From a virus: DNA of 64,000 nt. Position numbers and translations under genes: made by a program. Each line of letters opens with the position of its first letter. Position 1 is the first letter of the stretch. This document shows, piece after piece, positions 1,131 through 64,000 of the stretch. The stretch lies in IMG/VR virus record IMGVR_UViG_3300042894_008159, positions 1 through 64,000 of that record, one strand, 5' to 3'. The notes under the pieces were generated by a model. The model ran no database searches and was not told the origin of the DNA. It worked only from the letters and a program-made list of their open reading frames with translations.

Positions 1131-4100
1131 AGGTTGATGTATAGGCAGCTGCTGCTACTCCTATATTTTTAATATTAACAATTACAGAAGGAGCTGCTGG
1201 AGCAACATAGGGAGTAGTAATAGCAGGAAAGGCAACAATCTCGCCAAATTCAGTGGATGCCGCAAATATTAATTCCAAATAATCTCCCTGTAAAAGCTCA
1301 ACTATTATGCTTACAAAAGGAAGTTGGATGACAGAATTTGAAACTAGGTCAATGTATGAATCTGTTCTAATAATGTCTGTTCCATTTTTTCTCAGCCAAA
1401 AATTCATCAGGCAATTTGTTCCTTGTGATTTTTGAACTTGTGGAGAAAAAGAAAATTCATAAATCCCAGAATAAGTTGGAGTAACCCTTGAATTACTGAC
1501 CAAAGAAAATCCATTTTCTATTTCAACCGTATTGTAAGTTATTATGGTTGGAGTATCTTCCGCTGTTACTGTTTGAGTAGTAGAATCACTATAAGAAGCA
1601 TAATAATTCATGATTCCGGCCCCGCTGGTCCCACTTGACCCAGAAGTTCCGCTGGTTCCAAAAGAACCATTTATACCAGATGTTCCAGAGGAACCCGATG
1701 TTCCGGTAGTACCGGACGAACCCGAAGTTCCAGAAGTTCCGGTGGTACCTGAAGATCCGGAGGTTCCAAAGGTTCCATTCAAACCAGAAGTACCAGATGA
1801 TCCAGTTGTTCCAGAAGAACCCGATGTTCCTGATGTTCCATCGGTTCCAGAAGTCCCTGCTGTTCCATCGGATCCAGAGGTTCCTGAAGTTCCAAAAGTC
1901 CCATCTAGACCAGAAGTTCCAGAGGTTCCATTGAATCCAGAAGTTCCAGAAGAACCAGTAGTTCCAGAAGAACCCGATGTCCCGGAGGTACCGTCAGAAC
2001 CAGAAGTTCCAGAAGTTCCATCTAAACCAGAAGTTCCAGAAGAACCCGATGTTCCAGAAGTACCGTCAGAACCAGAAGTTCCAGAAGTTCCGTCGAAACC
2101 AGAAGTTCCAGAAGTTCCAAAAGTTCCATCTAAACCAGAAGTTCCAGAGGATCCCGATGTTCCAGCAGTCCCATCTGATCCAGAAGTTCCAGATGAACCA
2201 GATGTTCCAGAAGAACCGGTAGTTCCAGAAGATCCCGATGTTCCAGCAGTCCCATCTGATCCAGAAGTTCCAGATGAACCAGATGTTCCAGAGGATCCAG
2301 TAGTTCCAGAGGATCCCGATGTTCCAGCAGTCCCATCTGATCCAGAAGTTCCAGATGAACCAGATGTTCCAGAAGATCCACTAGTTCCAGATGATCCCGA
2401 TGAGCCAGAAGTTCCGGATGTTCCATCTGATCCAGAAGTTCCAGATGAACCAGATGTTCCAGAAGAACCAGTAGTTCCAGAAGATCCCGATGTTCCAGCA
2501 GTCCCATCTGATCCAGAAGTTCCAGATGAACCAGATGTTCCAGAGGATCCAGTAGTTCCAGAGGATCCCGATGTTCCAGCAGTCCCATCTGATCCAGAAG
2601 TTCCAGATGAACCAGATGTTCCAGAAGATCCACTAGTTCCAGAGGATCCCGATGTTCCAGCAGTCCCATCTGATCCAGAAGTTCCAGATGAACCAGATGA
2701 ACCAGAAGATCCGGTAGTACCGGAGGATCCGGAAGAACCAGAAGTTCCGGAAGTTCCATCTGATCCAGAAGTTCCAGATGAACCAGATGTTCCAGAAGAT
2801 CCACTAGTTCCAGATGATCCCGATGAGCCAGAAGTTCCGGATGTTCCATCTGATCCAGAAGTCCCTGATGATCCTGATGTACCCGAAGATCCGGTAGTTC
2901 CAGAGGATCCCGATGTTCCAGCAGTCCCATCTGATCCAGAAGTTCCAGATGAACCAGATGTTCCAGAAGATCCAGTAGTTCCGGAGGATCCCGATGTTCC
3001 AGCAGTCCCATCAGAACCAGAAGTACCCGATGAACCTGATGTACCTGAAGAACCAGTAGTTCCAGAGGATCCCGATGAGCCAGAAGTTCCAGAGGTTCCA
3101 TCTGATCCAGAAGTTCCTGATGTACCTGAAGAACCAGTAGTTCCAGAGGATCCCGATGAGCCAGAAGTTCCAGAGGTTCCATCTGATCCAGAAGTTCCTG
3201 ATGTACCTGAAGAACCAGTAGTTCCAGAGGATCCCGATGAACCAGAAGTTCCTGAAGTCCCATCTGATCCAGAAGTTCCCGATGAACCTGATGTACCTGA
3301 AGAACCAGTAGTTCCAGAGGATCCGGAAGAGCCAGAAGTTCCGGATGTTCCATCTGATCCAGAAGTTCCAGATGATCCAGATGATCCAGAGGATCCAGTA
3401 GTTCCAGAGGATCCCGATGTTCCAGCAGTCCCATCTGATCCAGAAGTTCCAGATGAACCAGATGTTCCAGAAGATCCAGTAGTTCCGGAGGATCCCGATG
3501 TTCCAGCAGTCCCATCAGAACCAGAAGTACCCGATGAACCTGATGTACCTGAAGAACCAGTAGTTCCAGAGGATCCCGATGAGCCAGAAGTTCCAGAGGT
3601 TCCATCTGATCCAGAAGTTCCAGAAGAACCTGATGTACCTGAAGAACCAGTAGTTCCGGATGATCCAGATGAGCCAGAAGTTCCAGAGGTTCCATCTGAT
3701 CCAGAAGTTCCAGATGAACCTGATGTTCCTGAAGAACCAGTAGTTCCGGATGATCCAGATGAGCCAGAAGTTCCGGATGTTCCATCTGATCCAGAAGTTC
3801 CAGATGAACCAGATGTTCCTGAAGAACCAGTAGTTCCGGATGATCCAGATGAGCCAGAAGTTCCGGATGTTCCATCTGATCCAGAAGTTCCAGATGAACC
3901 AGATGTTCCAGAAGATCCAGTAGTTCCAGAGGATCCCGATGAGCCAGAAGTTCCGGATGTTCCATCTGATCCAGAAGTTCCAGATGAACCAGATGTTCCA
4001 GAAGATCCAGTAGTTCCAGAGGATCCCGATGAGCCAGAAGTTCCAGAGGTTCCTCTTGTACCATCAGATCCAGAAGTTCCTGATGATCCACTGGTTCCAG

Positions 4101-4548
4101 AAGTACCAGAACTTCCTGTTGTTCCAGAAGATCCACTGGTTCCGGTAGATCCAGAAGTACCAGAGCTGCCTGAAGTACCAGAACTTCCCGAGCTAGATCC
4201 TCCGGTTCCACCACCGCTAGAATCCCCACTCATGTTAGAGAAAATCACGGTTACACCTGGGTCCCAGGTAAAATCTAAAATTCCTTCGTTAGAGATTGGA
4301 TCAGTAACTACATCACCTATAGCCTGAATACATTGTTGATATAGGTCATATCCTTGACCGGTTTTAGTAATATAAACTACAGTTCCATAATAAAATCTAG
4401 AAGCTGTAAGAGGTCCAGAATTGTAAACAGTAGTGAAGTAAAGGTAAACCCCGTTTTCGACCGCAATAATTTCCGAGAGTGTGTCTAACTCGAAAGAAGT
4501 GGCCAGTGTTTGTGAACCAGAAATATATTGTATTACAATCTTTTTCAC
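1..4548 (-). CDS. Collagen-like (Gly-Ser/Thr-Ser) tail fibre, 3' end beyond window
   Basis: The minus-strand frame from the GTG at 4548 stays open to base 1, so at least 1516 codons are present and the C-terminus is missing. About 110 ordinary residues (start MKKIVIQYISGSQT) lead into roughly 285-290 Gly-X-Y triplets, almost all GTS or GSS with rare charged residues and no proline. A globular segment of about 160 residues follows (about 1131-1611; NYYASYSDSTTQTVTAEDTP, later SGIYEFSFSP, FWLRKNG) that resembles C1q/TNF-type jelly rolls of phage and bacterial collagen-like proteins. At least 125 more triplets run off the edge. The GTG abuts the stop of the previous gene (TAGGTG), which implies translational coupling; an internal ATG at 4233 is a possible alternative. 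Inferred role: trimeric fibre stalk with a receptor-binding or trimerising head. Reading frame certain, function inferred. Confidence 0.8.
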   Translation of the reverse strand, partial: MKKIVIQYISGSQTLATSFELDTLSEIIAVENGVYLYFTTVYNSGPLTASRFYYGTVVYITKTGQGYDLYQQCIQAIGDVVTDPISNEGILDFTWDPGVTVIFSNMSGDSSGGGTGGSSSGSSGTSGSSGTSGSTGTSGSSGTTGSSGTSGTSGSSGTSGSDGTRGTSGTSGSSGSSGTTGSSGTSGSSGTSGSDGTSGTSGSSGSSGTTGSSGTSGSSGTSGSDGTSGTSGSSGSSGTTGSSGTSGSSGTSGSDGTSGTSGSSGSSGTTGSSGTSGSSGTSGSDGTSGTSGSSGSSGTTGSSGTSGSSGTSGSDGTSGTSGSSGSSGTTGSSGTSGSSGTSGSDGTAGTSGSSGTTGSSGTSGSSGTSGSDGTAGTSGSSGTTGSSGSSGSSGTSGSDGTSGTSGSSGSSGTTGSSGTSGSSGTSGSDGTSGTSGSSGSSGTTGSSGTSGTSGSDGTSGTSGSSGSSGTTGSSGTSGTSGSDGTSGTSGSSGSSGTTGSSGTSGSSGTSGSDGTAGTSGSSGTTGSSGTSGSSGTSGSDGTAGTSGSSGTTGSSGTSGSSGTSGSDGTSGTSGSSGSSGTSGSSGTSGSSGTSGSDGTSGTSGSSGSSGTTGSSGSSGSSGTSGSDGTAGTSGSSGTSGSSGTSGSSGTSGSDGTAGTSGSSGTTGSSGTSGSSGTSGSDGTAGTSGSSGTTGSSGTSGSSGTSGSDGTSGTSGSSGSSGTSGSSGTSGSSGTSGSDGTAGTSGSSGTTGSSGTSGSSGTSGSDGTAGTSGSSGTTGSSGTSGSSGTSGSDGTAGTSGSSGTSGLDGTFGTSGTSGFDGTSGTSGSDGTSGTSGSSGTSGLDGTSGTSGSDGTSGTSGSSGTTGSSGTSGFNGTSGTSGLDGTFGTSGTSGSDGTAGTSGTDGTSGTSGSSGTTGSSGTSGLNGTFGTSGSSGTTGTSGTSGSSGTTGTSGSSGTSGINGSFGTSGTSGSSGTSGAGIMNYYASYSDSTTQTVTAEDTPTIITYNTVEIENGFSLVSNSRVTPTYSGIYEFSFSPQVQKSQGTNCLMNFWLRKNGTDIIRTDSYIDLVSNSVIQLPFVSIIVELLQGDYLELIFAASTEFGEIVAFPAITTPYVAPAAPSVIVNIKNIGVAAAAYTSTSGTSGTSGLNGTSGTSGSSGTSGSSGTSGGTGTSGTSGSSGSSGTSGFSGSSGTSGSSGTSGGTGSSGTSGSSGTSGGAGSSGTSGSSGTSGSSGSSGSSGSSGSSGTSGGAGSSGTSGSSGTSGSSGSSGSSGSSGSSGTSGGTGSSGTSGSSGSSGSSGSSGSSGTSGGSGSSGTSGSSGSSGSSGSSGSSGTSGGAGSSGTSGSSGTSGSSGSSGSSGSSGTSGGAGSSGTSGSSGTSGSSGSSGSSGSSGSSGTSGGAGSSGTSGSSGTSGSSGSSGSSGSSGSSGTSGGTGSSGTSGSSGSSGSSGSSGSSGTSGGAGSSGTSGSSGSSGSSGSSGSSGTSGGAGSSGTSGSSGSSGSSGSSGSSGSSGSSG
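1612..4212 (-). repeat. Proximal Gly-X-Y coding repeat block
   Basis: About 2.6 kb of degenerate 9-bp units, mostly GGA-(A/T)CN-TCN on the minus strand, arranged in higher-order near-identical blocks (the stretch decoding to GTSGTAGTSGSSGTSG recurs many times). The frame is kept throughout. The repeat creates long spurious open frames on both strands. Confidence 0.9.
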
Positions 4549-53209: not shown

Positions 53210-54109
53210 CTAATTTTCGCCTTGCAAAATGTCTTCCAGTAGAGAATTCTCTATCGAATTGCTTAAGACATCTCTCAGATTTTCAATCATTTTTTTTCTC
53301 TTTTCTATCTTATCTGAATTTTTTAGATCCACTTTTTCAGACAAAGTTTCTTTCAACCTCCCGATTAAATGTGATTCTTCTTCTGAGCAATCCATGCCCA
53401 AAACACATTTAGTTAGGTATGTGCAAATTCTATTTTCGAAAAGATCTACGAGTGATTCTTCGGACTCAATAAATTTTCCAGAAGGCCCTCTGAATTCCAT
53501 CAGATATTGGTTGTTTTTTCTTTTAATCCTGATGTCTGGAAATTTAGCATCTCCAGATTTGTAAACTTTCAGTTCAGAAAAAAGTTCAGATCCTTCATTT
53601 TTTTCCATCTCTACCTCCATTCCATTGTCCAATTTCAATTCATAAAGTCCGGGAAACCTCATCTGATTATTTTGTACTTGTGAATGTATTCCAAATAAAT
53701 CCAAAATAATTTGGGTGTTTTCCGATATTCTCTCCAGACCACTTTCTTTTTTAACCGTGTTGGACTCGACGAAATTATCGATAAAATCTTCCATTTCTTC
53801 TCGATTCTTCAATTTTGAAAACCACTTCGTGTAAGGTTTTATGTGGATGACCGCCGATTTTGTATTGGACTTCATTTCACAGCAGGATTTCGGAAATCTA
53901 ACTTTTTTGTCATTGTGTTCCAGCTCGACCCAATTTTCATCTATGGCATATCCAATCATACCCTGATTAGGTTCCGGATATACTTGAAGTTTAAGTGACC
54001 AGTTTGCCAAAGGTCCTATGATGCCTAAATTTTTTTTTCCAGAAGATTTTGACTCATTTAGAGAAAAAAATTCTTCAAAATAGGGAACCAAATTATTCAT
54101 TTTTTCCAA
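53210..54109 (-). CDS. Candidate prohead-targeted protein (N-terminal SLNE site), 299 aa
   Basis: Start at ATG 54109 or the closer ATG at 54100 (MNNLVPYFEEFFSLNESKSS). The first 16-19 residues form an amphipathic F/E-rich stretch ending L-N-E followed by Ser, matching (L/I)xE cleavage sites of T4-type prohead protease and similar in position to those in the 56-64 kb genes. The mature part is alpha/beta, acidic and Lys-rich (NKKVRFPKSCCEMK; NGMEVEMEKNEGSELF). It overlaps the upstream gene by 17 nt or 8 nt depending on start. Function unknown; head targeting inferred. Confidence 0.65.
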   Translation of the reverse strand: MEKMNNLVPYFEEFFSLNESKSSGKKNLGIIGPLANWSLKLQVYPEPNQGMIGYAIDENWVELEHNDKKVRFPKSCCEMKSNTKSAVIHIKPYTKWFSKLKNREEMEDFIDNFVESNTVKKESGLERISENTQIILDLFGIHSQVQNNQMRFPGLYELKLDNGMEVEMEKNEGSELFSELKVYKSGDAKFPDIRIKRKNNQYLMEFRGPSGKFIESEESLVDLFENRICTYLTKCVLGMDCSEEESHLIGRLKETLSEKVDLKNSDKIEKRKKMIENLRDVLSNSIENSLLEDILQGEN

Positions 54110-54527
54110 ACAAGACTGTAACTTTGAAATCCGCTACTTTAGCTGACTTTTTCATATCGATGTGTAAAAAGGTGGGATCGGTTGGAATTAAAGATTCTCC
54201 CTTGCGTATAACTACCAGATTGGAATCAATATTTTCCCCAGGAACAATTTCAAATTCAAACTCTTTCGGATCATCCGGATGGTCGTCCACTTTAACCTCC
54301 AATTCAATTTGGTTTATTTTGAATGATATATCCTGAACTCCTTGTTTTTGTCTTTCAATCGAAATCTCATATTCAATCTCACATTTTAAATCGTCTACAT
54401 CCGACAATTCAGGAGGGCGGTTGGTCAATTTGACATCAACATAATCCAAAGATGCTGTGAAAGTGTGCTCCGAGGTGAACCTTTTTTTCTTTTGAACTGA
54501 ATATGAACCAAAATCTTGAATTCTCAT
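54093..54527 (-). CDS. Hypothetical protein, 144 aa
   Basis: ATG 54527 (MRIQDFGSYSVQKKKRFTSE) is preferred over a TTG nine bases earlier because it fits the motif-to-start spacing at 54547. Beta-rich and acidic (DVDDLKCEIEYEISIERQKQ; HPDDPKEFEFEIVPGE), consistent with a small beta-sandwich. No family recognised. First gene of a leftward operon with the 299-aa candidate head protein. Confidence 0.65.
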   Translation of the reverse strand: MRIQDFGSYSVQKKKRFTSEHTFTASLDYVDVKLTNRPPELSDVDDLKCEIEYEISIERQKQGVQDISFKINQIELEVKVDDHPDDPKEFEFEIVPGENIDSNLVVIRKGESLIPTDPTFLHIDMKKSAKVADFKVTVLFGKNE

Positions 54528-54546
54528 GTATGACAATTACTTTGTT

Positions 54547-54555
54547 TATATATCG
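54547..54555 (-). promoter_or_regulatory. CGATATATA motif, leftward
   Basis: Minus strand GACGATATATAAACAAAG, 19 nt between motif and ATG 54527. Confidence 0.5.
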
Positions 54556-54588
54556 TCAACTCCATTTTCCTTTTTAGGGCTGACTCAA

Positions 54589-54597
54589 GAATATATA
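54589..54597 (+). promoter_or_regulatory. GAATATATA motif, rightward
   Basis: Plus strand AAGAATATATATGATG, 31 nt between motif and ATG 54629. Pairs back to back with the leftward copy at 54547, giving a divergent promoter region. Confidence 0.45.
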
Positions 54598-54628
54598 TGA
54601 TGAATTTCAAAAATTTAAACCAACGGTC

Positions 54629-55339
54629 ATGAAAAATCTCGAGTCCACCTGGTTTCTACAGTTACCAATAGATACCGAACACAAACAGTACATTTTGTTA
54701 GACTTTCTACAAGAAGTAAATGAAGAAATTCGAAGGGACAACATTTATCATCCCATTCAACAAATTTTTTCTTCTATTAAAGGTTTAAAATTGTCTGAAA
54801 AAATTTTGGCAAACGAAAAATTAGATCTTCAAAAAATGGATCAGGAAGAAATTCAGATTTTTGAAAAATTCATAGATTCAAAATTTACAGAAGAAGAAAA
54901 AGAAGAACTTCGGGAAATTGTTGATTTATCTTTGGATTGTTTGTATAAGTACGCCGAGCTGGGAACAAACATTTGGAAAAAGTTAGAAAAAAGAATTTCG
55001 GTTTACAATCTGACTCCAGACAAGAAAAATTCAGATTTAGGTATTTTATTGGTTAGAAATCTTGCCACTGATGAAATTTATTCATACTGGTGGTCCAGAT
55101 ATTCTAATGCTTCTTCCTTTGGAATTATGATGAAAAGAGTTAGAATTTCTAACAATTTTTTTTCAATATCCTATGATCATCTTGTAAATGAAATTTTGGT
55201 TACTGTTGGAGTCCAAGCACCAAATTCAAAAGTCACGGTTATTGAAATTCAAGAAGACTTCAATGAGGAATCTAACATTTTAAAGATCGCCAAAGAACTT
55301 TTCATTAAAGATTTAGAAAGTCAAGTGGCTTTACTGTGA
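54629..55339 (+). CDS. Hypothetical plus-strand protein, 236 aa
   Basis: Start MKNLESTWFLQLPIDTEHKQ. N-terminal half helical and charged (LDLQKMDQEEIQIFEKFIDS; FTEEEKEELREIVDLSLDCL), C-terminal half mixed (EIYSYWWSRYSNASSFGIMM; VTVIEIQEDFNEESNILKIA). No family recognised. One of only two convincing plus-strand genes. Its end overlaps the convergent glycosyltransferase-like gene by 9 nt. Confidence 0.68.
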   Translation: MKNLESTWFLQLPIDTEHKQYILLDFLQEVNEEIRRDNIYHPIQQIFSSIKGLKLSEKILANEKLDLQKMDQEEIQIFEKFIDSKFTEEEKEELREIVDLSLDCLYKYAELGTNIWKKLEKRISVYNLTPDKKNSDLGILLVRNLATDEIYSYWWSRYSNASSFGIMMKRVRISNNFFSISYDHLVNEILVTVGVQAPNSKVTVIEIQEDFNEESNILKIAKELFIKDLESQVALL

Positions 55340-56002
55340 ATTTTTCCAGCAGTCATCAATTAAAGAATGACCCTCGTGTTGGAATGCAGATCTTTCCCAA
55401 GAGATACCGAATTTATTGTTACCGTGTAGCCAATTTATTTCATTGAACCACAAATCCGGAGAATCCCAATTATTCTCTCCTAAACGGTTCAAATAAAATT
55501 CTCTACCAGAACGGTGTAAGATAACACAATGGGCCAAAATAATTTTTGGTGTTGTATAAAATTCAGGAAAATCTGGGTCTGTTTCAGAGACTGGGGACTG
55601 TAAAAATCCATTCACAAATCTAGAGCCAAGGGAAAAATAACGTATCTCGTGTTTGTTACAAAATTCAATAGCCCTATATACTGTCTTCATGAAATCTTCC
55701 GGGGTTACTTCTAGTACACAATCACACTCACACAGGATCAAGGCATCTAGATCATCATCAAAATTTTCCAACATTGCCTTCTTGAACGATTGGAAAGCTC
55801 CATAGTGTCCAGGGCCATGATTGGTAAATTCATTCTGACACAAAGCTTTAGTTAATTTCCAGTCATCTCCAGTATATCTTTGGTTTACTTGTTGAGCATA
55901 TTCTAATCCCATATTTCCAAGGGGAGACAAAGAAGCAATGGAAGCTATTTCCCTAGGTGTATCTATTTCGGTTAAAATGTGAACCAAACGAATTTTGGAC
56001 AT
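55331..56002 (-). CDS. Glycosyltransferase-like protein (GT-A fold candidate)
   Basis: 223 aa, start MSKIRLVHILTEIDTPREIA. Pattern of small GT-A enzymes: GHYGAFQSFKKAMLENFDDD, then DALILCECDCVLEVTPEDFM (an E-x-D in the DxD position for metal-nucleotide-sugar binding), and a later ALHEN-like region (DSPDLWFNEINWLHGNNKFG; RSAFQHEGHSLIDD). Could glycosylate virion proteins such as the Thr/Ser-rich stalks, DNA, or host surface sugars; acceptor unknown. A strong terminator separates it from the upstream operon. I see no AGATATATA motif before it. Confidence 0.6.
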   Translation of the reverse strand: MSKIRLVHILTEIDTPREIASIASLSPLGNMGLEYAQQVNQRYTGDDWKLTKALCQNEFTNHGPGHYGAFQSFKKAMLENFDDDLDALILCECDCVLEVTPEDFMKTVYRAIEFCNKHEIRYFSLGSRFVNGFLQSPVSETDPDFPEFYTTPKIILAHCVILHRSGREFYLNRLGENNWDSPDLWFNEINWLHGNNKFGISWERSAFQHEGHSLIDDCWKNSQ

Positions 56003-56025
56003 ACGACAAATTTAATTCTTATACC

Positions 56026-56057
56026 AAAAAAAAAGGACGAGTTTCAAACCCGTCCTT
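56026..56057 (-). terminator. Intrinsic terminator downstream of the 113-aa gene
   Basis: Minus strand AAGGACGGGTT-TGA-AACTCGTCCTT followed by a run of at least seven T: an 11-bp stem with one G-T pair and a 3-nt loop, 19 nt after the stop at 56076. A textbook rho-independent terminator. Confidence 0.85.
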
Positions 56058-56075
56058 CTATTAAAAACAAAATCT

Positions 56076-56417
56076 TTAGAAATCCTCTAGTCTTTTGATT
56101 TTGGTGTAATCAATTGCCTCAGATTCGTTGGTTGTTGTTGGGGTTAAACCTGGACCACCAATGGCGTTGATGTACTGCCTGTCTTTACCAGCGTTGTAAC
56201 CAGGCAATCCAATACCAGCTTTATCTGGAGAAAAGACGGCATCGGCATAACCCACAAAGTCATAGGCAGGTTCTCTTTTGATCTTGTGAAATCCTGTTCT
56301 ATCGTAAGAATCTTTTTGATTTTCTGCGGCTAACGGTTTGAACGTATTGTCCATAACCTTACCCAGAAAATCTTTAAAATCTAAAATTTCTCTTTTTGAT
56401 ACATCATTTATATTCAT
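56076..56417 (-). CDS. Hypothetical protein, 113 aa
   Basis: Start MNINDVSKREILDFKDFLGK. Short helix, then extended Gly/Pro/Tyr-rich sequence (AYDFVGYADAVFSPDKAGIG; GLPGYNAGKDRQYINAIGGP), ending KIKRLEDF. It shares the F-x-x-F N-terminal flavour of the head-targeted candidates but has no (L/I)xE site there. Last gene before a strong terminator. No family recognised. Confidence 0.65.
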   Translation of the reverse strand: MNINDVSKREILDFKDFLGKVMDNTFKPLAAENQKDSYDRTGFHKIKREPAYDFVGYADAVFSPDKAGIGLPGYNAGKDRQYINAIGGPGLTPTTTNESEAIDYTKIKRLEDF

Positions 56418-56426
56418 GATTTGATT

Positions 56427-57149
56427 TTATTTTTTTGGTTGAAGAAGGGTCGTGAATAAATCCTCCCCTGATGTGTTACCGATTTGGGTTGGGTTTGCCT
56501 GGTTCATTGATCCTAAATTAGAAAAGAAGTTGTCCAACATTGTGTTTTTTTCTTTAGGGTTTTCTGTGGGAATGCCTTTTTCTTTGGCTTTTGCAGCCAA
56601 TTCATTTTCTATTTTCGTTTTTTCCTGGGGATTAAGCGATTTCTTAAAATCTTCTGCAGAAGTTTCTGGTAATCCACCAAACATAGAAAGATAGAAATTT
56701 TCTAATTTTTTTGAGAAATCTTTTTTTGTAACTTCGTTGGTGAGCATCTCCGAAATTGTTCGGTATAAATATCCGTTGGTATCGGTAATTCCTAAATTTT
56801 TTGCTATTCCATCTGGCCCCATTTCTATTAAAAATTCAATTGTTGCTTGTGCTGCTTTAGGAGCCAAATATGGAGCACTAATTTTACCTTTGAATAAAAT
56901 GGCATAATAATCTTTTACTGGGATAGTTTCAACAAAGTTTTGTACCAATTTGGAAAGAATTGATCCCTCTCCAATCCCCAAATATTCAAAAATATGGGCA
57001 GTAACCTTTCCTTTCAGTACATCGGTGAAAGCATCAAATCCTTTTGTAAATAGATTTCCTAAAAAATCGAAGGAAAAAAATGAATCGTTTGCTTCGTTTA
57101 TTTTTTTGGAAGTAAATTCGTCGAAATTTTGAACTTTTTGAATTTTCAC
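56427..57149 (-). CDS. Candidate internal head protein with KINE-A cleavage site, 240 aa
   Basis: GTG start at 57149 (MKIQKVQNFDEFTSKKINEA), supported by the AGATATATA motif 17 nt upstream; an in-frame ATG is not available nearby. Residues 1-19 mirror the T4 capsid-targeting sequence (F-x-x-F...I-N-E followed by Ala, compare T4 IPI/IPIII leader ending FIAE-A). The mature part is helical (FEYLGIGEGSILSKLVQNFV; NFYLSMFGGLPETSAEDFKK) with a disordered C-terminus. Predicted to enter the prohead core and be cleaved; function otherwise unknown. Confidence 0.7.
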   Translation of the reverse strand: MKIQKVQNFDEFTSKKINEANDSFFSFDFLGNLFTKGFDAFTDVLKGKVTAHIFEYLGIGEGSILSKLVQNFVETIPVKDYYAILFKGKISAPYLAPKAAQATIEFLIEMGPDGIAKNLGITDTNGYLYRTISEMLTNEVTKKDFSKKLENFYLSMFGGLPETSAEDFKKSLNPQEKTKIENELAAKAKEKGIPTENPKEKNTMLDNFFSNLGSMNQANPTQIGNTSGEDLFTTLLQPKK

Positions 57150-57165
57150 TAGGTAGACTTTTTTT

Positions 57166-58602
57166 CTATATATCTACTTCTACTTTTGAAAATGATTCGG
57201 TTTGTTCAACTTCAAGAAAAAGGTCAACTGCCTGTTGACGATACTTCAATTTGTTCTCTTTGATTTTTGGATTTTTCAAAGCCTCTTTAGGACGATCCAC
57301 AATTTCAGAGGGAAGTAGAGGCCCAAATGTATCTTTCAGAATTTTTTTATCTGTTCTCCATTCTCTTGGTAGATGTAAAGCAAATCGAACTATGTCAAGG
57401 TGTAAAAAAGGATTTCTAAGTTCCAATGTGTGTGCCATTGAAAGCTTGTCCAATCTGGGAAGGTGGTAAAATCTCAATTCATCGAATATATCAGAAAACT
57501 GGGAATCATACTCGTGAATTCTTGAATAACCTCCGAAAAGTTCATCTGCTCCGTCTCCACTTAAAACAATTCTAGAATTTCCTTGATTTTTAACCGATTC
57601 AAAGAGAAAAAATTGAGGTACTACTGAACCCAAATCAATAGGGCTTTCATTCCATTTTTGATAGATTTTTTTAATTTTAGACTCATCCATGTTGTACTCC
57701 AAAAAATTAACATCCTTTTGGTAAAATTCAGACAGGATTTTAACAAACTTGGATTCTCCATTTTCTATAGAAAACCATTTTACCTCTGGAGACATTTGTG
57801 ATAAGATCCCAGCAATGATAGATGAATCTAAACCACCAGAAACAAGTAGTGAAATAGGATAATTTTTAGAAATTAATCTGTTTTGAACAGATTCAAAAAG
57901 TTTTGCCCACAGCCACTCCATGTGAGCTTCATAATCTCCGGGTGTTAGATTTTCAATTGGGAAGTTAAATCCTCTATAATAATTAGAGTAAGTAGATTTA
58001 AAACCGGGAACTTCCAAATTGTAATAATAAATCGTGTTGGGTAAAATTCTTTTAACGTCTCTGTAGGGGGTTGAATCGTCGGTTACATATCCAAATTTTC
58101 TAACTGTCGAAATGAAATGTGAATCTTGAGGGCTAAACCAATGTTGAACCGCCTTTATTTCGGAAGCTAGCTCGCCATCATCGTTGGTGTATAAACATTT
58201 TTTCCCAAGCGGATCGGTAAAACAAATAATGTCTTTAGATTTGGAATCATAGATAGCTATCGCCCAAAATCCATCCCAGGTTTGAATTCTAGGAACGAAC
58301 AAAGAACAAAACATTTGGAAAGATCCTCCCTTCCAAGGGGCAAATGTTTGACAAAGATATTCTATGTCTGAACCAAAGACTGTGGTGTCATAGTTAAAGA
58401 TCTCACCATTGTAAAGCAAGAAAATCCCTGGTGAAATTTCAATTGGTTGTTTCCACCCATCCCCTTCTTCTGTTTGGATTGGAAGTCTAGTGTGGGATAA
58501 AAAAACTCCATCTCTTTCAATCGTATTTGATTCTATACCTCTATGTGACATAGAATTTAATCTCGAGGTTTCCCCGTCTATATTAATAAAAATACCACAC
58601 AT
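57166..58602 (-). CDS. asnB: Asparagine synthetase B-like (glutamine-hydrolysing)
   Basis: 478 aa, slightly shorter than bacterial AsnB (about 550). N-terminal glutaminase: MCGIF puts the nucleophile Cys at 2; RGIESN at 21-26; LLYNGEIFNYD at 62-72. Synthetase domain: PPi-loop SGGLDSS at 255-261 and SGDGADELFGGYSR at 348-361; both catalytic halves look intact. Known reaction: Asp + Gln + ATP to Asn + Glu + AMP + PPi, but homologues also amidate sugars and peptides. It abuts the P-loop kinase gene upstream. The last codons (GAT ATA TAG) form the promoter-like motif of the next gene. A phage could use it for nitrogen metabolism or for modifying a virion or surface molecule. Confidence 0.9.
   Translation of the reverse strand: MCGIFINIDGETSRLNSMSHRGIESNTIERDGVFLSHTRLPIQTEEGDGWKQPIEISPGIFLLYNGEIFNYDTTVFGSDIEYLCQTFAPWKGGSFQMFCSLFVPRIQTWDGFWAIAIYDSKSKDIICFTDPLGKKCLYTNDDGELASEIKAVQHWFSPQDSHFISTVRKFGYVTDDSTPYRDVKRILPNTIYYYNLEVPGFKSTYSNYYRGFNFPIENLTPGDYEAHMEWLWAKLFESVQNRLISKNYPISLLVSGGLDSSIIAGILSQMSPEVKWFSIENGESKFVKILSEFYQKDVNFLEYNMDESKIKKIYQKWNESPIDLGSVVPQFFLFESVKNQGNSRIVLSGDGADELFGGYSRIHEYDSQFSDIFDELRFYHLPRLDKLSMAHTLELRNPFLHLDIVRFALHLPREWRTDKKILKDTFGPLLPSEIVDRPKEALKNPKIKENKLKYRQQAVDLFLEVEQTESFSKVEVDI
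57167..57175 (-). promoter_or_regulatory. AGATATATA motif embedded in asnB stop region
   Basis: Minus strand AGTAGATATATAGAAAAAAAG, 17 nt before the GTG at 57149. Overlaps the Asp-Ile-stop codons of asnB. Confidence 0.55.
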
Positions 58603-58603
58603 A

Positions 58604-59140
58604 TTAAATCAAATGAATTAAATTCTTTGTGGTCATATGGGTAAAGTCATTAGTAAGTTTCACAACTTCTAAATCAGGCTGAAGAAATTGAACAGCAGAA
58701 ATTATATTTAAAAGAGTTTCTTTTTCCTCTGCAGACCCCTCTCGAAAATCCCATTGGTCTTTAGTTCTGGATTCTGGGTTTGTGCCTTCAACTAGAACTA
58801 TCTTTAGGTTTACCAAAAGTCCTTTATCCCTCAAAAGATTAAGTTGTTGTGAAGCTTCCTGCTGAGTGATTCTTTTGCTGATAATCCCCCAGGTTAAAAC
58901 AGTGAGAAATCCCCGATCCAAGATAAAATGAGGCAGGAGTCCATCTCTATTGAGCTGAAGTAGCATGGCCTCTTTTCCTAATGCAAAATAATGTGTCTTT
59001 GGATCTTCGTCTGGAATCATCAATCCAGAAAACCATCCAGCAAATTCAAATTTGTAAATTTGCATTCCCGTTTGCTGGGAGTATTTGTTCGCCAGAAAAG
59101 TTTTACCAGAATTTCTTGCTCCTTCAAAAATTGTGATCAT
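58604..59140 (-). CDS. P-loop kinase, (deoxy)nucleoside monophosphate-kinase-like
   Basis: 178 aa. Walker A GARNSGKT at 7-14 right at the N-terminus, a later LDRGFLTVLTWG in the position of the 'D-R' motif of thymidylate and deoxynucleoside kinases (about 98-109), and IVLVEGTNPESRTKDQWDFR as a lid-like Arg region. Size fits the dNK/dTMP-kinase or polynucleotide-kinase superfamily; substrate not determinable. First gene of the operon with asnB (one-base gap). Upstream lies TATCTTTG at 59159-59166, matching the Bacteroidota -7 consensus TAnnTTTG. Confidence 0.75.
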   Translation of the reverse strand: MITIFEGARNSGKTFLANKYSQQTGMQIYKFEFAGWFSGLMIPDEDPKTHYFALGKEAMLLQLNRDGLLPHFILDRGFLTVLTWGIISKRITQQEASQQLNLLRDKGLLVNLKIVLVEGTNPESRTKDQWDFREGSAEEKETLLNIISAVQFLQPDLEVVKLTNDFTHMTTKNLIHLI

Positions 59141-59158
59141 GTGAATTTAATTAAAACA

Positions 59159-59166
59159 CAAAGATA
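59159..59166 (-). promoter_or_regulatory. Possible host-type (Bacteroidota) -7 element TATCTTTG
   Basis: Exact match to TAnnTTTG, 18 nt before ATG 59140. No good -33 TTTG is visible at 19-21 nt upstream, so this is weak. The kinase-asnB operon lacks the AGATATATA motif, so use of a host sigma (earlier expression) is plausible. Confidence 0.3.
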
Positions 59167-59248
59167 ATGTTTCGAAAAAAATTCACACTTTAGAATAGAT
59201 TGTAAAACTGATGGTGTATTCAATTGATATAATCTTATTTCTATAAAT

Positions 59249-59605
59249 TTATTGATAAGTTTTTATAGAATTAATTGAATTCAATTTCTTTTCATTATTA
59301 CCTAGTTTCTTCCAAATTTTTCTGAACTTATGATTCCTTTTCAAAAAATTGGCTCTTTCTTTATCCCCTCGTAAACTTTCGAATTTTCTGAATTCATTTG
59401 GGAATTGACTATGAAAAACGGCCAAACTTGAATTTAAGGGATAAAAAAGAGAATCTCTGCTTAGAATTTTTGCTTGATCTAAAGCTGGTTGAATTATCTC
59501 TTGGTTTACTAAATCTTTCGAATATTTTGGATCAATTGGTTTTATATCCAATTCTTTCCGGCAAGAAACAAAAGTAAGTAGAATGAGAAAAAGTATTTTA
59601 TTCAT
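59249..59605 (-). CDS. Small lipoprotein
   Basis: 118 aa. Signal peptide II: MNKILFLILLTFVSC-R, with the lipobox T-F-V-S-C and modified Cys at 15, then KELDIKPIDPKYSKDLVNQE and a Lys/Arg-rich helical C-terminus (GDKERANFLKRNHKFRKIWK). No family recognised. The only exported lipoprotein in the window. Phage lipoproteins often act in superinfection exclusion or as outer-membrane spanin subunits; the basic helical body is unlike typical Pro-rich o-spanins. Flanking genes give no further clue. Confidence 0.7.
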   Translation of the reverse strand: MNKILFLILLTFVSCRKELDIKPIDPKYSKDLVNQEIIQPALDQAKILSRDSLFYPLNSSLAVFHSQFPNEFRKFESLRGDKERANFLKRNHKFRKIWKKLGNNEKKLNSINSIKTYQ

Positions 59606-59647
59606 GATTGGGGCTAAAAATAAGAATGAAACATCAAATTTTTAACA

Positions 59648-62107
59648 TCAATCTAAATTAACCACAAACACATTCTTAGAGTCGAATGTTTTAATGTCTT
59701 CCTTCTTCTTGTAATTCATTCTATCTGCATGTCTTTCGACTAAAGGAACAAGAACTTTAGAGGCTCTTTCTAAATTTTCTTTGAAGATTTTTTTGGAGTT
59801 ACCATCATATCCCTTAGTCAATATCTCTATTCCTTGTTTATTCAATGATGGGATTGGCGATTTGGGATCATTTTCTACCACTTTAACATCCGAGATTTTC
59901 TTTAAAACACCCTCTGTCAATACCTTATTCTTCAAAATATTCAAAGCTGAATCCCATTTTTTCTTTTCAGAATTCCAAGCTATGGAAGATCCACAAAGGA
60001 ATACACAGATCGAAAGCATCAAAAAATCATAGAATCCTAAATCTGGCTCTTCATCATCTATTTGTGCAGCAGTTGAAGCAGCCTCTAAGATTTTTGCCAT
60101 GGCTTCAGAAGTCAAATATCCCTGTTTAAAGTATTCATATGAATCTGAATCCGGTGAAGATTTACCTGCCTTAATTGCATCTTTTATGTCATCATAAAAA
60201 CTAGCACAATCGTTGAAAGAATCAGCCAATTTTGGATTAACCATAGAGGAGTTTTTTGGATTTGAATAGAAGTCAAGTAGTTCTTTAATTACCTTTTCTT
60301 TTTGAATGTCTTCTAAACCACCAAACCCTGTGTAGTAGCTCGTGTACCATCTTGCGAAAGAATCTTTTTCTTGTGAAGTTTCCCCTCCTGAAAATTCCTT
60401 CCATTTTTCCCAATTATATGGTTTTTTGTAATTACCTGCCAATCTTTTAGTTGAATAAAGAGCACCCGTTTTTTCATCAGGCTCTTGGAACCAAAAGAAG
60501 CCAGGTTTATCAGATGAGCTAGAGTTTTCTTCTAGTGTACTAATCCACGCACTCACGAATTCATTCGGATAAGAACTCTTAAGTGTTCCATCTTCTTTCA
60601 AAAAATCCTCCTCTTCTGCATTTTTGTTGTAACCGTTTCTTAACAGCTTTGATAATTTTTTTGCTAATTTAGAATCTTCTGATGTTTTCTCTTCTTTATC
60701 TTTTGCAGAACTATTTTCGGGCATATTAGCCAAATCTGCTGAATTTTTTTGGATTTCTCTTTCTAGATCATCATCATCGATAAAAATGGCTTCAAATAAT
60801 TTTGAGAAATTCTCTATTCCTAAAACCTTGGATTCTGACATAGCATATGTTTTTTTCAAAACACCCAAAGCATTTGTTAACATTTTTTTGTTTTCGCCGG
60901 AGATTTGCTCCATTTTCAGGAGAGAATCGAAAAGGGGTTTATCCAATTCACCATTTGCGTTTTTATTTCCAAGTAAAGATTGGATAGACTTGATTGCAAT
61001 TGATGTTGCTTTACCGTATTTACCATCCGCCCCTCCATGTTTTTGTAAGAAAGTTTTAAAAGAGGGGAAAGATGACATTAAAGATTTCTGTACAGCAGTG
61101 ATAATACCAGACTTTTTAAATTTCAGGTCTGTGTCCTTTGCTCCAATTTTTATCGGGAAAATTTTTTGAATCACCTTCTGCTCCATCTCATCCATTTCTT
61201 CCCTGATAGTTTTATCTATCAATAACTCTTGACCATTTGCTTTTGCTATAATGTCCAAAGCATCGGTAATAATTTGATTCACATCTGAATATTTTGTCAC
61301 AAGTTCATCGTCATCAATGATCTTTTTCATACTCATCTCTGCAGTTCTAATCTTGTAATTGTAATATTCTTCGGAAAGAGAATCTGTTTGTTTTTCTAGT
61401 TCAGACAAAGTTTTTCTGTCTTTCTCGCCAGTTAAATCTTTGGAGTCTTCAATGGCTTCTAATTTTTGTTCCAGTGAAGAAAACAGTCTTTGCCAGTCTC
61501 TCCCATATCCATTTTTTGCATCCTTTCCTTTGGAATCAGAAATCAAATTAACAAGTTTTTTTCTTAGTTTTTCGATTCTACCGCTAAACCCTACGAGAGA
61601 CTCGTTCAAAGAATTTGAATTAAAATCAAAACTTGAAGATTCATTAGTCGCTTTCTTTTTTGAAAAACTTAATGCAATAGAATCCAAAGAGGAAATTAAT
61701 CGATTAGCTGAAGTTTTGTAAGAATCAATAATAGAATCCTCTAATTTAGAATCAATTTCAACCAATCTTTTCAATGCATCACCCATAGAATTTAAGGCAT
61801 TCATATACATATTTTTAACCTTAGAAAATCTAGAATCTGCCAATTCAGACTCCCCTGCATAATCTTTGATTTTGGCAACTAAGCTTTTGACAGTTTTGGC
61901 GGATGCAATATCCAACAACATGGATCTTAAAACATCAGGGTTGCGATTTTCTTGAGAGGCAAGATCAAAAACAATTTTTTTGAATGTATCTAAGCAAATC
62001 TCTGTTGCTCTTTTAAGAAGATTGTCCACCGAGGCATTTTCATTAAGCTTCATAAAATCTGTAATAATAGATTTTGCAGCAGGGTTGTGAGTGAAATAAT
62101 TTCTCAT
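59648..62107 (-). CDS. Large internal head-protein candidate, PG-binding-like segment (819 aa)
   Basis: Residues 1-23 (DFMKLNE at 17-23, followed by Asn) form a leader ending L-N-E; a second S-L-N-E-S lies at 166-170. Long helical coiled-coil stretches (about 170-320). At about 345-400 a segment like PG_binding_1 modules occurs (KHGGADGKYGKATSIAIKSI, with the 'DG-x-YG-x-x-T-x-x-A-I-x-x-x-Q' pattern and a later D-x-x-LFDSLL). The C-terminal half is acidic with a hydrophobic stretch (FLMLSICVFLCGSSIAW). Large, coil-rich and Lys/Glu-rich like ejected internal virion proteins. The upstream gene ends 2 nt away. Head location inferred from the leader. Confidence 0.72.
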   Translation of the reverse strand: MRNYFTHNPAAKSIITDFMKLNENASVDNLLKRATEICLDTFKKIVFDLASQENRNPDVLRSMLLDIASAKTVKSLVAKIKDYAGESELADSRFSKVKNMYMNALNSMGDALKRLVEIDSKLEDSIIDSYKTSANRLISSLDSIALSFSKKKATNESSSFDFNSNSLNESLVGFSGRIEKLRKKLVNLISDSKGKDAKNGYGRDWQRLFSSLEQKLEAIEDSKDLTGEKDRKTLSELEKQTDSLSEEYYNYKIRTAEMSMKKIIDDDELVTKYSDVNQIITDALDIIAKANGQELLIDKTIREEMDEMEQKVIQKIFPIKIGAKDTDLKFKKSGIITAVQKSLMSSFPSFKTFLQKHGGADGKYGKATSIAIKSIQSLLGNKNANGELDKPLFDSLLKMEQISGENKKMLTNALGVLKKTYAMSESKVLGIENFSKLFEAIFIDDDDLEREIQKNSADLANMPENSSAKDKEEKTSEDSKLAKKLSKLLRNGYNKNAEEEDFLKEDGTLKSSYPNEFVSAWISTLEENSSSSDKPGFFWFQEPDEKTGALYSTKRLAGNYKKPYNWEKWKEFSGGETSQEKDSFARWYTSYYTGFGGLEDIQKEKVIKELLDFYSNPKNSSMVNPKLADSFNDCASFYDDIKDAIKAGKSSPDSDSYEYFKQGYLTSEAMAKILEAASTAAQIDDEEPDLGFYDFLMLSICVFLCGSSIAWNSEKKKWDSALNILKNKVLTEGVLKKISDVKVVENDPKSPIPSLNKQGIEILTKGYDGNSKKIFKENLERASKVLVPLVERHADRMNYKKKEDIKTFDSKNVFVVNLD

Positions 62108-62109
62108 CT

Positions 62110-62379
62110 TTAGTATATGTTTGTTTTATCTCCAGATTTTTCTTTAGCTTCCATTGATGTTGCCAGTTTATTCAGCATAGCAGGTAATGCAGCATATAGA
62201 GTCGCTTGTTTTTTTAAACTGGCAGTTTTTTGAGCTACCTCTGATTGATTCTTTTCATTTTGGATTTCGTCCCTAATGGCTTGCAATTGATCATTCACCG
62301 CCTTCTTAGCATTTACTAAATCTGAATTAACATCCTCGTTCAAAGGGAAATCCCCAAGATTTAAAATAATTTTAGTCAT
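62110..62379 (-). CDS. Small candidate head protein with PLNE-D site, 89 aa
   Basis: Start MTKIILNLGDFPLNEDVNSD; LNE at 13-15. The rest is one helix rich in Lys, Gln and Ala (KAVNDQLQAIRDEIQNEKNQ; TASLKKQATLYAALPAMLNK), like small scaffold or core proteins (compare T4 gp67/gp68 in size only). It overlaps the upstream gene by 8 nt. Confidence 0.65.
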   Translation of the reverse strand: MTKIILNLGDFPLNEDVNSDLVNAKKAVNDQLQAIRDEIQNEKNQSEVAQKTASLKKQATLYAALPAMLNKLATSMEAKEKSGDKTNIY

Positions 62380-63280
62380 ATCTTCTGGCTATTGTTATTT
62401 TCGTTCTGACGTCACCTATTTTGTCGGTATGCTTTGTTTTCAAGTCTCTAATTTCTCTTTTAAGCTGAGCATCGCTCATACCAATTTTAGCCGCGTCTGC
62501 TTCTAATCTTTCCACATCTAGATCTCTAATAGCACACATTTCATTTTTAACCCGTGTCAATTCTCTTATTAGATCTTTTGTGTTTTCTTTACCTAATTCT
62601 TGTGCGTATTTTTCAAATTCAGTTCCAGAATAACCCAAAATTTTATTGAGAGTAGATTTGGCAATTTTAGAAGGACCGTAATTTTTAGACATTTTTACAG
62701 AAGAAGACTTAACGAATTCTTCGGTTGGCAATTTCATCTCGCCATATTTTTTTCTGAAATCCTCATCTTTTTCTTTGGCAATCAAAGCAGCCTTTTTGTA
62801 CTTATCATATAGTTCTTCTCCTAGATCTGTGTTGGTAAGTTTTTTTGCCACATCATATAAGCGTTCAGCAATTTCTTTTTCTGCCCTGCTTTTCTTCAAA
62901 TTCCAATAAGAGACTAATTTAGAATTTTTTTCCACAATTTTTCTAACCTTTTCCTCTATATCAGAAATAGATGAATTTTTCTTAACTAACATAGACTGAA
63001 GTAGTTTTTCGTTCCTATCAATCATACGATCCAACTTTCTAGATTCCGCTGGATCGTTTGTAATTTGGGCCTTTTGTACCTGAAGAGCATCTATCTCGGT
63101 AGCAATTTTATCCCATTCTTTTGTGTAATCTTCTTCTATTTGGATAATGTCTTCCAAATATGAATCAATCTTACTTGTTTTTCCACCAAAAAAGTTTCCA
63201 AACCAATTTAAAATATCTTTCATTGAGTTTCCTTCATTCAATGAATTGTGAAGGTCCCATTGTTTAAAATTATAAACCAT
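62372..63280 (-). CDS. Coiled-coil candidate head protein with SLNE-G site, 302 aa
   Basis: Start MVYNFKQWDLHNSLNEGNSM; LNE at 14-16 followed by Gly, a favoured P1' residue for T4-type prohead proteases. Residues about 40-180 are continuous heptad coil (LEDIIQIEEDYTKEWDKIAT; DRNEKLLQSMLVKKNSSISD), and a second coil sits near the C-terminus. Lys/Glu-rich, no Cys apart from one, as expected for a core or internal protein. Confidence 0.7.
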   Translation of the reverse strand: MVYNFKQWDLHNSLNEGNSMKDILNWFGNFFGGKTSKIDSYLEDIIQIEEDYTKEWDKIATEIDALQVQKAQITNDPAESRKLDRMIDRNEKLLQSMLVKKNSSISDIEEKVRKIVEKNSKLVSYWNLKKSRAEKEIAERLYDVAKKLTNTDLGEELYDKYKKAALIAKEKDEDFRKKYGEMKLPTEEFVKSSSVKMSKNYGPSKIAKSTLNKILGYSGTEFEKYAQELGKENTKDLIRELTRVKNEMCAIRDLDVERLEADAAKIGMSDAQLKREIRDLKTKHTDKIGDVRTKITIARRYD

Positions 63281-63294
63281 ATTTTGTGTTTATT

Positions 63295-63876
63295 TTAAGG
63301 GGTAGTCAATTTATTTATCATTTCCTGTGCTTCTTTCTTTGCCTGATCTAAAGCATCTTTTAGATTTTCAATTTCTGAAGCTTCTGCAGAAATTTTTTTA
63401 GCCAAATCATATTCAAATTCAGCTAAATCAATTTCTAACTCAGCCATTTTTGCTTTTATAACTTCTTTTAAACGTGGAGATTTCGCTCCCTCTTTTCTTA
63501 ATAATTCTTTCGCTTTTTCAATTGCTGTAGATTTTGATTTAACCATAGCTTTATATTCATTTTTCTTCGCTTCAATTTGTTCTTTGATTGATTCGACTGC
63601 ATCTTGATTGATTGGTGTTCTATCACGAATACCTTTCAACTTAAGATCCATATTACGCAAAGTTTTTTTCAAATCATATTTTGCTTGAAGCAAATCTTTT
63701 TCATATTCCAAAATATTATCTACTATATAATTAATTGTTTTGGTCTTAGAATAAGGCATTATTGAATCTATTGCATTTGCTAAAGAATCCATAAACCCTT
63801 CTTTGAGGTGAGAATCGTTGGATTTTGAGCCAAATTGTAAATCTATATAGGAATTAAAATCCTTTACTTTTGACAT
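63295..63876 (-). CDS. Coiled-coil candidate head protein with HLKE-G site, 193 aa
   Basis: Start at ATG 63876 (MSKVKDFNSYIDLQFGSKSN); the 15-residue longer frame reads through the AGATATATA motif and is rejected. L-K-E at 24-26 followed by Gly-Phe. The rest is almost all coiled coil (IVDNILEYEKDLLQAKYDLK; KKISAEASEIENLKDALDQA). First gene of the 59.6-63.9 kb cluster, just after a strong terminator. Confidence 0.7.
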   Translation of the reverse strand: MSKVKDFNSYIDLQFGSKSNDSHLKEGFMDSLANAIDSIMPYSKTKTINYIVDNILEYEKDLLQAKYDLKKTLRNMDLKLKGIRDRTPINQDAVESIKEQIEAKKNEYKAMVKSKSTAIEKAKELLRKEGAKSPRLKEVIKAKMAELEIDLAEFEYDLAKKISAEASEIENLKDALDQAKKEAQEMINKLTTP

Positions 63877-63968: not shown

Positions 63969-64000
63969 TTAAACCAGACCGCCAGTAGGCAGGTTAACAT
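63969..64000 (-). CDS. C-terminal fragment of an upstream gene
   Basis: In the minus strand, the frame ending at the TAA (63971-63969) reads VNLPTGGLV-stop, directly followed by the strong terminator. Only about ten codons lie inside the window, too few to name the product; a virion protein with a Gly-rich C-terminus is possible. Confidence 0.5.
   Translation of the reverse strand, partial: VNLPTGGLV

Follow-up and report, generated by a model that had tools for sequence, protein, structure and literature searches.

Why do six genes directly downstream of the head genes of a large T4-like phage all encode proteins that begin with a short leader ending in L/I-x-E? The locus lies in the 124,012-base IMG/VR phage record IMGVR_UViG_3300042894_008159, of which positions 1–64,000 form the window analysed here. 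An original prediction, made from the letters of the window, took these leaders for capsid-targeting sequences (CTS) of the phage T4 type that are also sites of the prohead protease. Our computational analysis supports this reading through the conservation of the site, an aromatic pair upstream of it and a matching LNE↓S site in the major capsid protein (arrows mark predicted cuts), and we put at about 0.85 the probability that the leaders are removable capsid-targeting propeptides working as in T4. The mechanism is already known from T4; what appears new, by the open literature searched (subscription journals and preprints lay mostly outside it), is the lineage, how many genes are tagged, which kinds of enzymes carry the tag, and the candidate polyproteins.

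The six genes (Table 1) are all present on the minus strand, which holds 84 of the 88 called genes. Their leaders, expected to span 15–26 residues, measure 15, 16, 16, 19, 23 and 26 residues, and the glutamate is followed, just as had been stated, by G, G, D, N, A and S in the order of the genes from 63295 to 53210. It should be noted that gene calls and start choices are those of this analysis and that the relatives are metagenomic contigs.

The leader genes follow a head block in which the gene for a protease–scaffold fusion is succeeded by that for a gp23-type major capsid protein; the portal, large terminase, sheath and tube genes are located past the window edge. The T4-type reading implies a gp21-type prohead protease in the same genome, and one was found in the fusion: it is of the S77/gp21 type, with the GELxHP and SSR motifs common to T4 gp21, and an S77-type protease occurs in 22 of the 22 relatives tested. 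The scaffold half of the fusion is a 14-residue YSEYLAEN-type repeat, each unit carrying a hydrophobic-x-Glu. By pattern, 12 such units were detected, and if the protease cut at each hydrophobic-x-Glu, 14-residue peptides would result. The capsid site, YCHYHSLNE↓SAGAY, is identical in all listed relatives whose locus extends to it, and the capsid propeptide has a similar counterpart in T4 gp23 (KAELLNKWKPLLE / EAEIFDTWSPIIE). Related LNE, INE or IYE sites lie near the capsid N-terminus in Lak, Tenacibaculum and Flavobacterium phages (Lak-B5, AKLNE↓D; PTm1, INE; MaF61, IYE↓S). Because the capsid sites in the clade and in related phages have this form, the protease of the clade very probably cuts after L/I-x-E, the same sequence with which the leaders end.

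The prediction had also held that the co-occurrence of the tripeptide in neighbouring genes was improbable by chance, and this argument does not stand. Bare [LI]xE[GASDN] within residues 5–34 is found in 21 of the 84 called genes of the record (shuffled mean 7.1, maximum 15), and 14 of these 21 occurrences lie outside leader genes. Since the bare tripeptide is so common, it was dropped as evidence, and conservation rather than chance co-occurrence carries the argument. The shuffled controls, here and below, ignore the relatedness of sequences.

With the capsid protein as query, a scan of viral contigs yielded 80 related loci, and alignments were made from relatives less than 80% identical to each other. 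The glutamate of the site is conserved in 100% (53210), 92% (56427), 97% (59648), 86% (62110), 100% (62372), 100% (63295) and 96% (70473, a further leader gene of the record) of the aligned proteins, and 78–100% of the sequences that have it also show a hydrophobic residue two positions before it. Mean pairwise identity is 30–43% for the six window proteins (0.30–0.50 with 70473 included), and few conserved glutamates are found elsewhere in these family alignments. The leader is conserved while the mature bodies diverge, to ~25–40% identity among the 80 contigs, as in T4-type CTS proteins. In the g034 family, whose bodies are strongly divergent, only E16, W93 and N99 are invariant (16 sequences, ~24% identical to the window protein); in the g042 family, E16 never varies and F5 and W8 hardly do. 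The glutamate of the g043 leader is conserved in 100% of 35 sequences, and relatives of g043 have propeptides of ~40–50 residues with several LxE sites. At the site, codon choice is free (GAA 79, GAG 65; AAC 57, AAT 36), which points to selection on the protein and not on a DNA element.

From relatives of five families, 143 distinct leaders were assembled. The residue before the glutamate is N in 93 of them, and the residue after it is S in 34, A in 26, G in 25 and D in 19; D or N takes this place in two of the six window genes. An aromatic-x-x-aromatic pair stands upstream of the glutamate in 121 of the 143 (shuffled mean 27, maximum 41), mostly 3–10 residues before it, and the spacer between the docking part and the cut part is 1–16 residues long. 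Mutational analysis of the 10-residue leader of T4 IPIII assigned targeting mainly to residues 4 and 7 and processing to residues 8 and 10 (PMC9026906, a review); in the T4 sequence, residues 4 and 7 are a Y/F pair three apart, and residues 8 and 10 are those of I-x-E.

A profile trained on the 143 leaders, from which T4 and window sequences were both absent, ranks T4 ipI first of 468 T4 open reading frames (ORFs), and does so in five of six trainings. When one family is left out at a time, the held-out family ranks 3rd to 9th among ~260–275 ORFs of the record, and the capsid LNE↓S site and g043, both outside the training set, come near the top with the full profile. Seven genes score at least 5, all within a 19-gene block at 53–74 kb (chance 8e-6, a figure that is partly circular because training families, themselves taken from near the capsid gene, account for five of the seven). 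The g040 leader, with no aromatic pair, is unrecognised by the profile (rank 31–58), and it is the conserved site that argues for it.

By analogy with T4, we propose that the aromatic pair F/W/Y-x-x-F/W/Y would dock the precursor on the scaffold core during prohead formation. The S77 protease–scaffold fusion would then cut after the glutamate of [L/I]-x-E, a site assigned from conservation, with a preference for N before the glutamate and S, A or G after it; further substrates of the same protease would be the capsid protein, cleaved at LNE↓S, and the scaffold, whose repeats offer many LxE sites. In the third step, the leader would leave and the mature body would stay in the head, and some bodies would probably be delivered into the host with the DNA.

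The prediction had called for a search for more leaders in the rest of the genome, and a clear one was found in g047. That of g050 is only probable, because it has no aromatic pair and in this phage F follows the glutamate. Leader-type sites also lie inside two large proteins, g040 and g046, which implies polyproteins cut into several pieces, and both look like protease-cut polyproteins by this pattern. In g040, three hydrophobic-x-Glu sites (E23, E169 and E439) are conserved across relatives, all at or beside low-confidence segments between folded parts of the structure model, and LNE↓S at 169 is kept although the preceding linker ranges from none to ~20 residues. A PG_binding_1 match is found in 20 of 26 g040 homologues and is weak in the window protein itself. 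The first module of g046, an aromatic pair followed by hydrophobic-x-Glu near residues 110–117, occurs in 40 of 43 relatives (shuffled 14), and the second, an xNE site followed by VLSFxxF near residues 575–630, in 30 of 43 (shuffled 1.75). Gly/Ala-rich hydrophobic stretches were also observed in g046.

In larger relatives, many genes carry the tag. Counting genes whose first 60 residues reach a profile score of 5, we found 18 of 285 in a 230-kb contig (shuffled 1.1), 27 of 355 in a 271-kb contig (shuffled 1.85), 32 of 471 in a 343-kb contig (shuffled 2.6) and 46 of 622 in a 434-kb contig (shuffled 2.1). Adenylate kinase and a RimK-like ATP-grasp ligase are leader-fronted in all four contigs by sequence, with Pfam applied on two; the adenylate kinase fold begins at about residue 23, so that ~20 residues are added before an ordinary enzyme. 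Leaders also front PG_binding_1, SLT and phage lysozyme domains, as well as DnaQ-like exonuclease, CHAP, glucosaminidase, OmpA-like and AAA domains, and a Tlde1/YkuD-type domain whose match is just under the curated cut-off. One PG-binding domain has a leader in one contig and none in another; standing before unrelated domains, and present or absent on the same domain, the leader is evidently portable. For the second leader cluster present in the 230-kb relative, no orthologues were found in the studied record, probably because that 124-kb record is partial.

The odds appear evenly balanced that across the clade the leader is one portable tag marking about 18–46 head cargo proteins per genome for delivery to the host, among them adenylate kinase, RimK-like ligase, DnaQ-like exonuclease and AAA ATPase proteins and a group of cell-wall hydrolases (CHAP, glucosaminidase, SLT, lysozyme and L,D-transpeptidase-like), with two further head proteins being polyproteins that the same protease would cut.

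Two tandem similar leader proteins were seen in the 434-kb relative (L132 6730–7878 and 7880–8992), suggesting duplication of a cargo gene. An apparent annexin-like stretch in a leader gene (G003, at 146126) was set aside, being unconfirmed by Pfam, which found phage lysozyme instead.

Other explanations of the shared leaders must be weighed against this evidence. If (L/I)xE were background, shared by the six genes through chance or composition, the bare motif should be widespread, as it is in the 21 of 84 genes, but the shuffled controls, the leave-one-family-out ranking, the conservation of the site across families and the excess of aromatic pairs (121 of 143 against 27) contradict this reading and make it very improbable. 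Nor is it credible that the conserved stretch represents a DNA or RNA element, such as a late promoter or translation signal, that encodes the peptide incidentally: it does lie at gene starts in late-type clusters, but codon choice is free, with every synonymous codon used for N and E and many for L and I, its spacing from the start ranges from 9 to ~50 codons, and the identical peptide also occurs inside genes. The leaders might instead be a docking tag only, to the scaffold or another phage structure, with a glutamate that is no cut site. In g037 the aromatic pair is present and LxE is missing, which suggests that a protein may dock and stay uncut; yet the glutamate is the most constant residue, its context is the same as at the capsid site, such sites recur at disordered linkers inside proteins and many times in the scaffold, and the protease is present in relatives, all of which renders a pure docking tag unlikely. 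The g037 family is strongly conserved, and its sequence would suit a possible head-core partner that is not cut.

A variant of the T4-type mechanism keeps packaging and cutting and differs in the third step alone: the mature proteins would be parts of the head core and would not be injected. This is a serious possibility, which we hold tentatively. The six window proteins are encoded beside the capsid and scaffold genes, two of them have a high coiled-coil content, the majority are kept throughout the clade, as core parts should be, and none of the bodies resembles a known injected protein. T4 internal proteins with such leaders are, however, largely ejected (PMC9026906), the 53210 gene is strongly divergent, and the leaders of relatives stand on enzymes without a plausible structural role. 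For the coiled-coil window proteins, a structural role in the head core is as likely as an anti-host one, and the anti-host effector role suggested for the six window genes is a guess. Pfam and PHROG searches with the bodies of leader proteins gave no match to the IPI–III or Alt families and none to known injected proteins, so they would act like internal proteins yet lie outside those families. The structure model of g034 has a disordered leader and a folded body; neither it nor the g040 model gave a match at E ≤ 0.001 in a fold search against PDB. Matches of g034 to ribosomal protein L6 were weak (E 2e-3, TM 0.13) and were not used.

Returning to the removable propeptides, several points weigh against them. 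The hydrophobic position in the profile was fixed by the selection pattern of the training set, though it is independently conserved in the alignments. T4 IPII and IPIII rank only ~26th–86th of some 350–390 scored T4 ORFs, which is not significant; ipI is thus one positive, and the profile is no general T4 detector. The leaders of g040 and g050 are without the aromatic pair, and some leader-bearing enzymes of relatives, such as adenylate kinase, are not obvious head cargo. Finally, no leader scored above 4 in the 38 kb around the Lak capsid gene or in the PTm1 and MaF61 capsid regions, and the extension of the leader to these phages was abandoned, although their capsid proteins keep the xE site; the leader form is therefore lineage-specific.

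Compared with the T4 CTS proteins (IPI, IPII, IPIII and Alt, cut by gp21), the proteins described here have the same short N-terminal leader with an aromatic pair three apart, [I/L]-x-E and a small residue. Both systems combine a gp21-type protease and a gp23-type capsid protein with conserved leaders and diverging bodies, and T4 ipI is the best T4 match of the leader profile. The present system differs in that the bodies are unrelated to IPI–III or Alt, N is preferred before the glutamate, the spacer varies from 1 to 16 residues, the larger relatives have far more leader genes, protease and scaffold form one protein, and two proteins have internal sites. In T4, the targeting sequence is the sole conserved part of diverse internal proteins, and one of these, IPI, is injected to counter a restriction enzyme (PMC3012670). 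As to the T4 substrates gp22 and gp23, the capsid propeptide is similar to that of gp23 and the scaffold is likewise rich in LxE, but unlike gp22 it is a 14-residue repeat array fused to the protease; PTm1 also has an annotated scaffold–protease fusion.

The large phages phiKZ and SPN3US, which have S80 proteases, are alike in Glu-motif processing, many inner head proteins and propeptides that in some cases have several cut sites (PMC5694885, PMC10052503). Their cleavage follows AxE in SPN3US, whose propeptides are mostly longer than 100 residues, and SxE in phiKZ (PMC5694885, PMC10052503), whereas the leaders here have 9–50 residues (15–26 in the window) and L/I-x-E, and the proteins do not qualify as ejection proteins of that kind. 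The closest named capsid relatives are the uncultured huge phage LR756500 (43.5% identity) and Lak (38–44%). The Lak megaphages and the moraphages are huge phages of Bacteroidota; moraphages have a prohead core protease (PMC12619734). The Lak capsid protein has an LNE site, but leaders of this form were not detected near its gene.

In uncultured phages of large and huge size, one sequence rule selects 18–46 genes per genome, the majority of them of unknown function, against a handful of leader-tagged internal proteins in T4. The tag may serve as a sequence-based predictor of proteins packed, and perhaps injected into bacteria, by such phages. If it is a packaging signal, a genome sequence would yield a list of probable head cargo and likely first-wave proteins, packaging and injection would become directly testable by proteomics, and the tag with its matching protease may offer a portable means of loading phage heads with proteins.

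Table 1. Coordinates of the leader genes, their predicted cut sites and associated features. Positions are those of the record unless a locus of a relative is named; ↓, predicted cut; pLDDT, predicted local distance difference test.
Feature	Position	Strand	Remarks
g043, leader gene	63295..63876	-	predicted coiled-coil head protein; ATG at 63876
g043 leader, 26 residues	63799–63876	-	predicted cut SHLKE↓GFM
g042, leader gene, 302 residues	62372..63280	-	coiled-coil rich
g042 leader, 16 residues	63233–63280	-	MVYNFKQWDLHNSLNE↓G; predicted cut NSLNE↓GNS
g041, leader gene, 89 residues	62110..62379	-	
g041 leader, 15 residues	62335–62379	-	MTKIILNLGDFPLNE↓D; predicted cut DFPLNE↓DVN
g040, leader gene, 819 residues	59648..62107	-	probable polyprotein
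g040 leader, 23 residues	62039–62107	-	predicted cut FMKLNE↓NAS; without aromatic pair
g040 internal site L167-N-E169↓S	61601..61609	-	Glu 100% conserved; pLDDT <50 at residues 155–172
g040 internal site L437-F-E439↓A	60791..60799	-	Glu 100% conserved; pLDDT <50 at residues 423–440
g038, leader gene, 240 residues	56427..57149	-	
g038 leader, 19 residues	57093–57149	-	VKIQKVQNFDEFTSKKINE↓A; predicted cut SKKINE↓AND
g037, 113 residues	56076..56417	-	conserved aromatic pair LDFKDF near N-terminus, no LxE site
g034, leader gene, 296 residues from ATG at 54100	53210..54100	-	
g034 leader, 16 residues	54053–54100	-	MNNLVPYFEEFFSLNE↓S; predicted cut FFSLNE↓SKS
gp23-type major capsid gene	63969–65696 (3' end in window 63969..64000)	-	PF07068 E 2e-36
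Capsid cut site SLNE43↓S	N-terminus of major capsid protein	-	predicted from sequence conservation
Protease–scaffold fusion	65722–67755 (L002 5722–7755)		PF03420 E 3e-10 (genome search), phrog_207 E 2e-38
g046, 880 residues	67821–70463 (L002 7821–10463)		two conserved internal leader-like modules
g047, leader gene	70473–71243		clear leader, Glu 96%
g050, probable leader gene	72927–73409		conserved INE or LNE at residue 9
Adenylate kinase behind cleavable-type leader	L094 5365–5997, L106 6476–7105, L141 14132–14800, L152 2200–2820		four large relatives
DnaQ-like exonuclease	L127 5912–6757		434-kb relative
CHAP	L129 1858–2679		434-kb relative
Glucosaminidase	L129 3234–3959		434-kb relative
Tlde1/YkuD-type	L133 15235–16041		434-kb relative

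Some features of the surroundings may be added. The start of g043 comes right after a terminator-like hairpin, itself behind the capsid gene. Amid the leader genes, positions 57166–58602 of the window encode an asparagine-synthase-like amidotransferase (recognised by eye; phrog_16728, of unknown function) without a leader. Open frames that are long, repetitive and extreme in codon score lie at window positions 2130–4229 and at record positions 115710–119921 and 121730–124003; these frames, near both ends of the record, are probably off-frame readings of collagen-like repeat genes.

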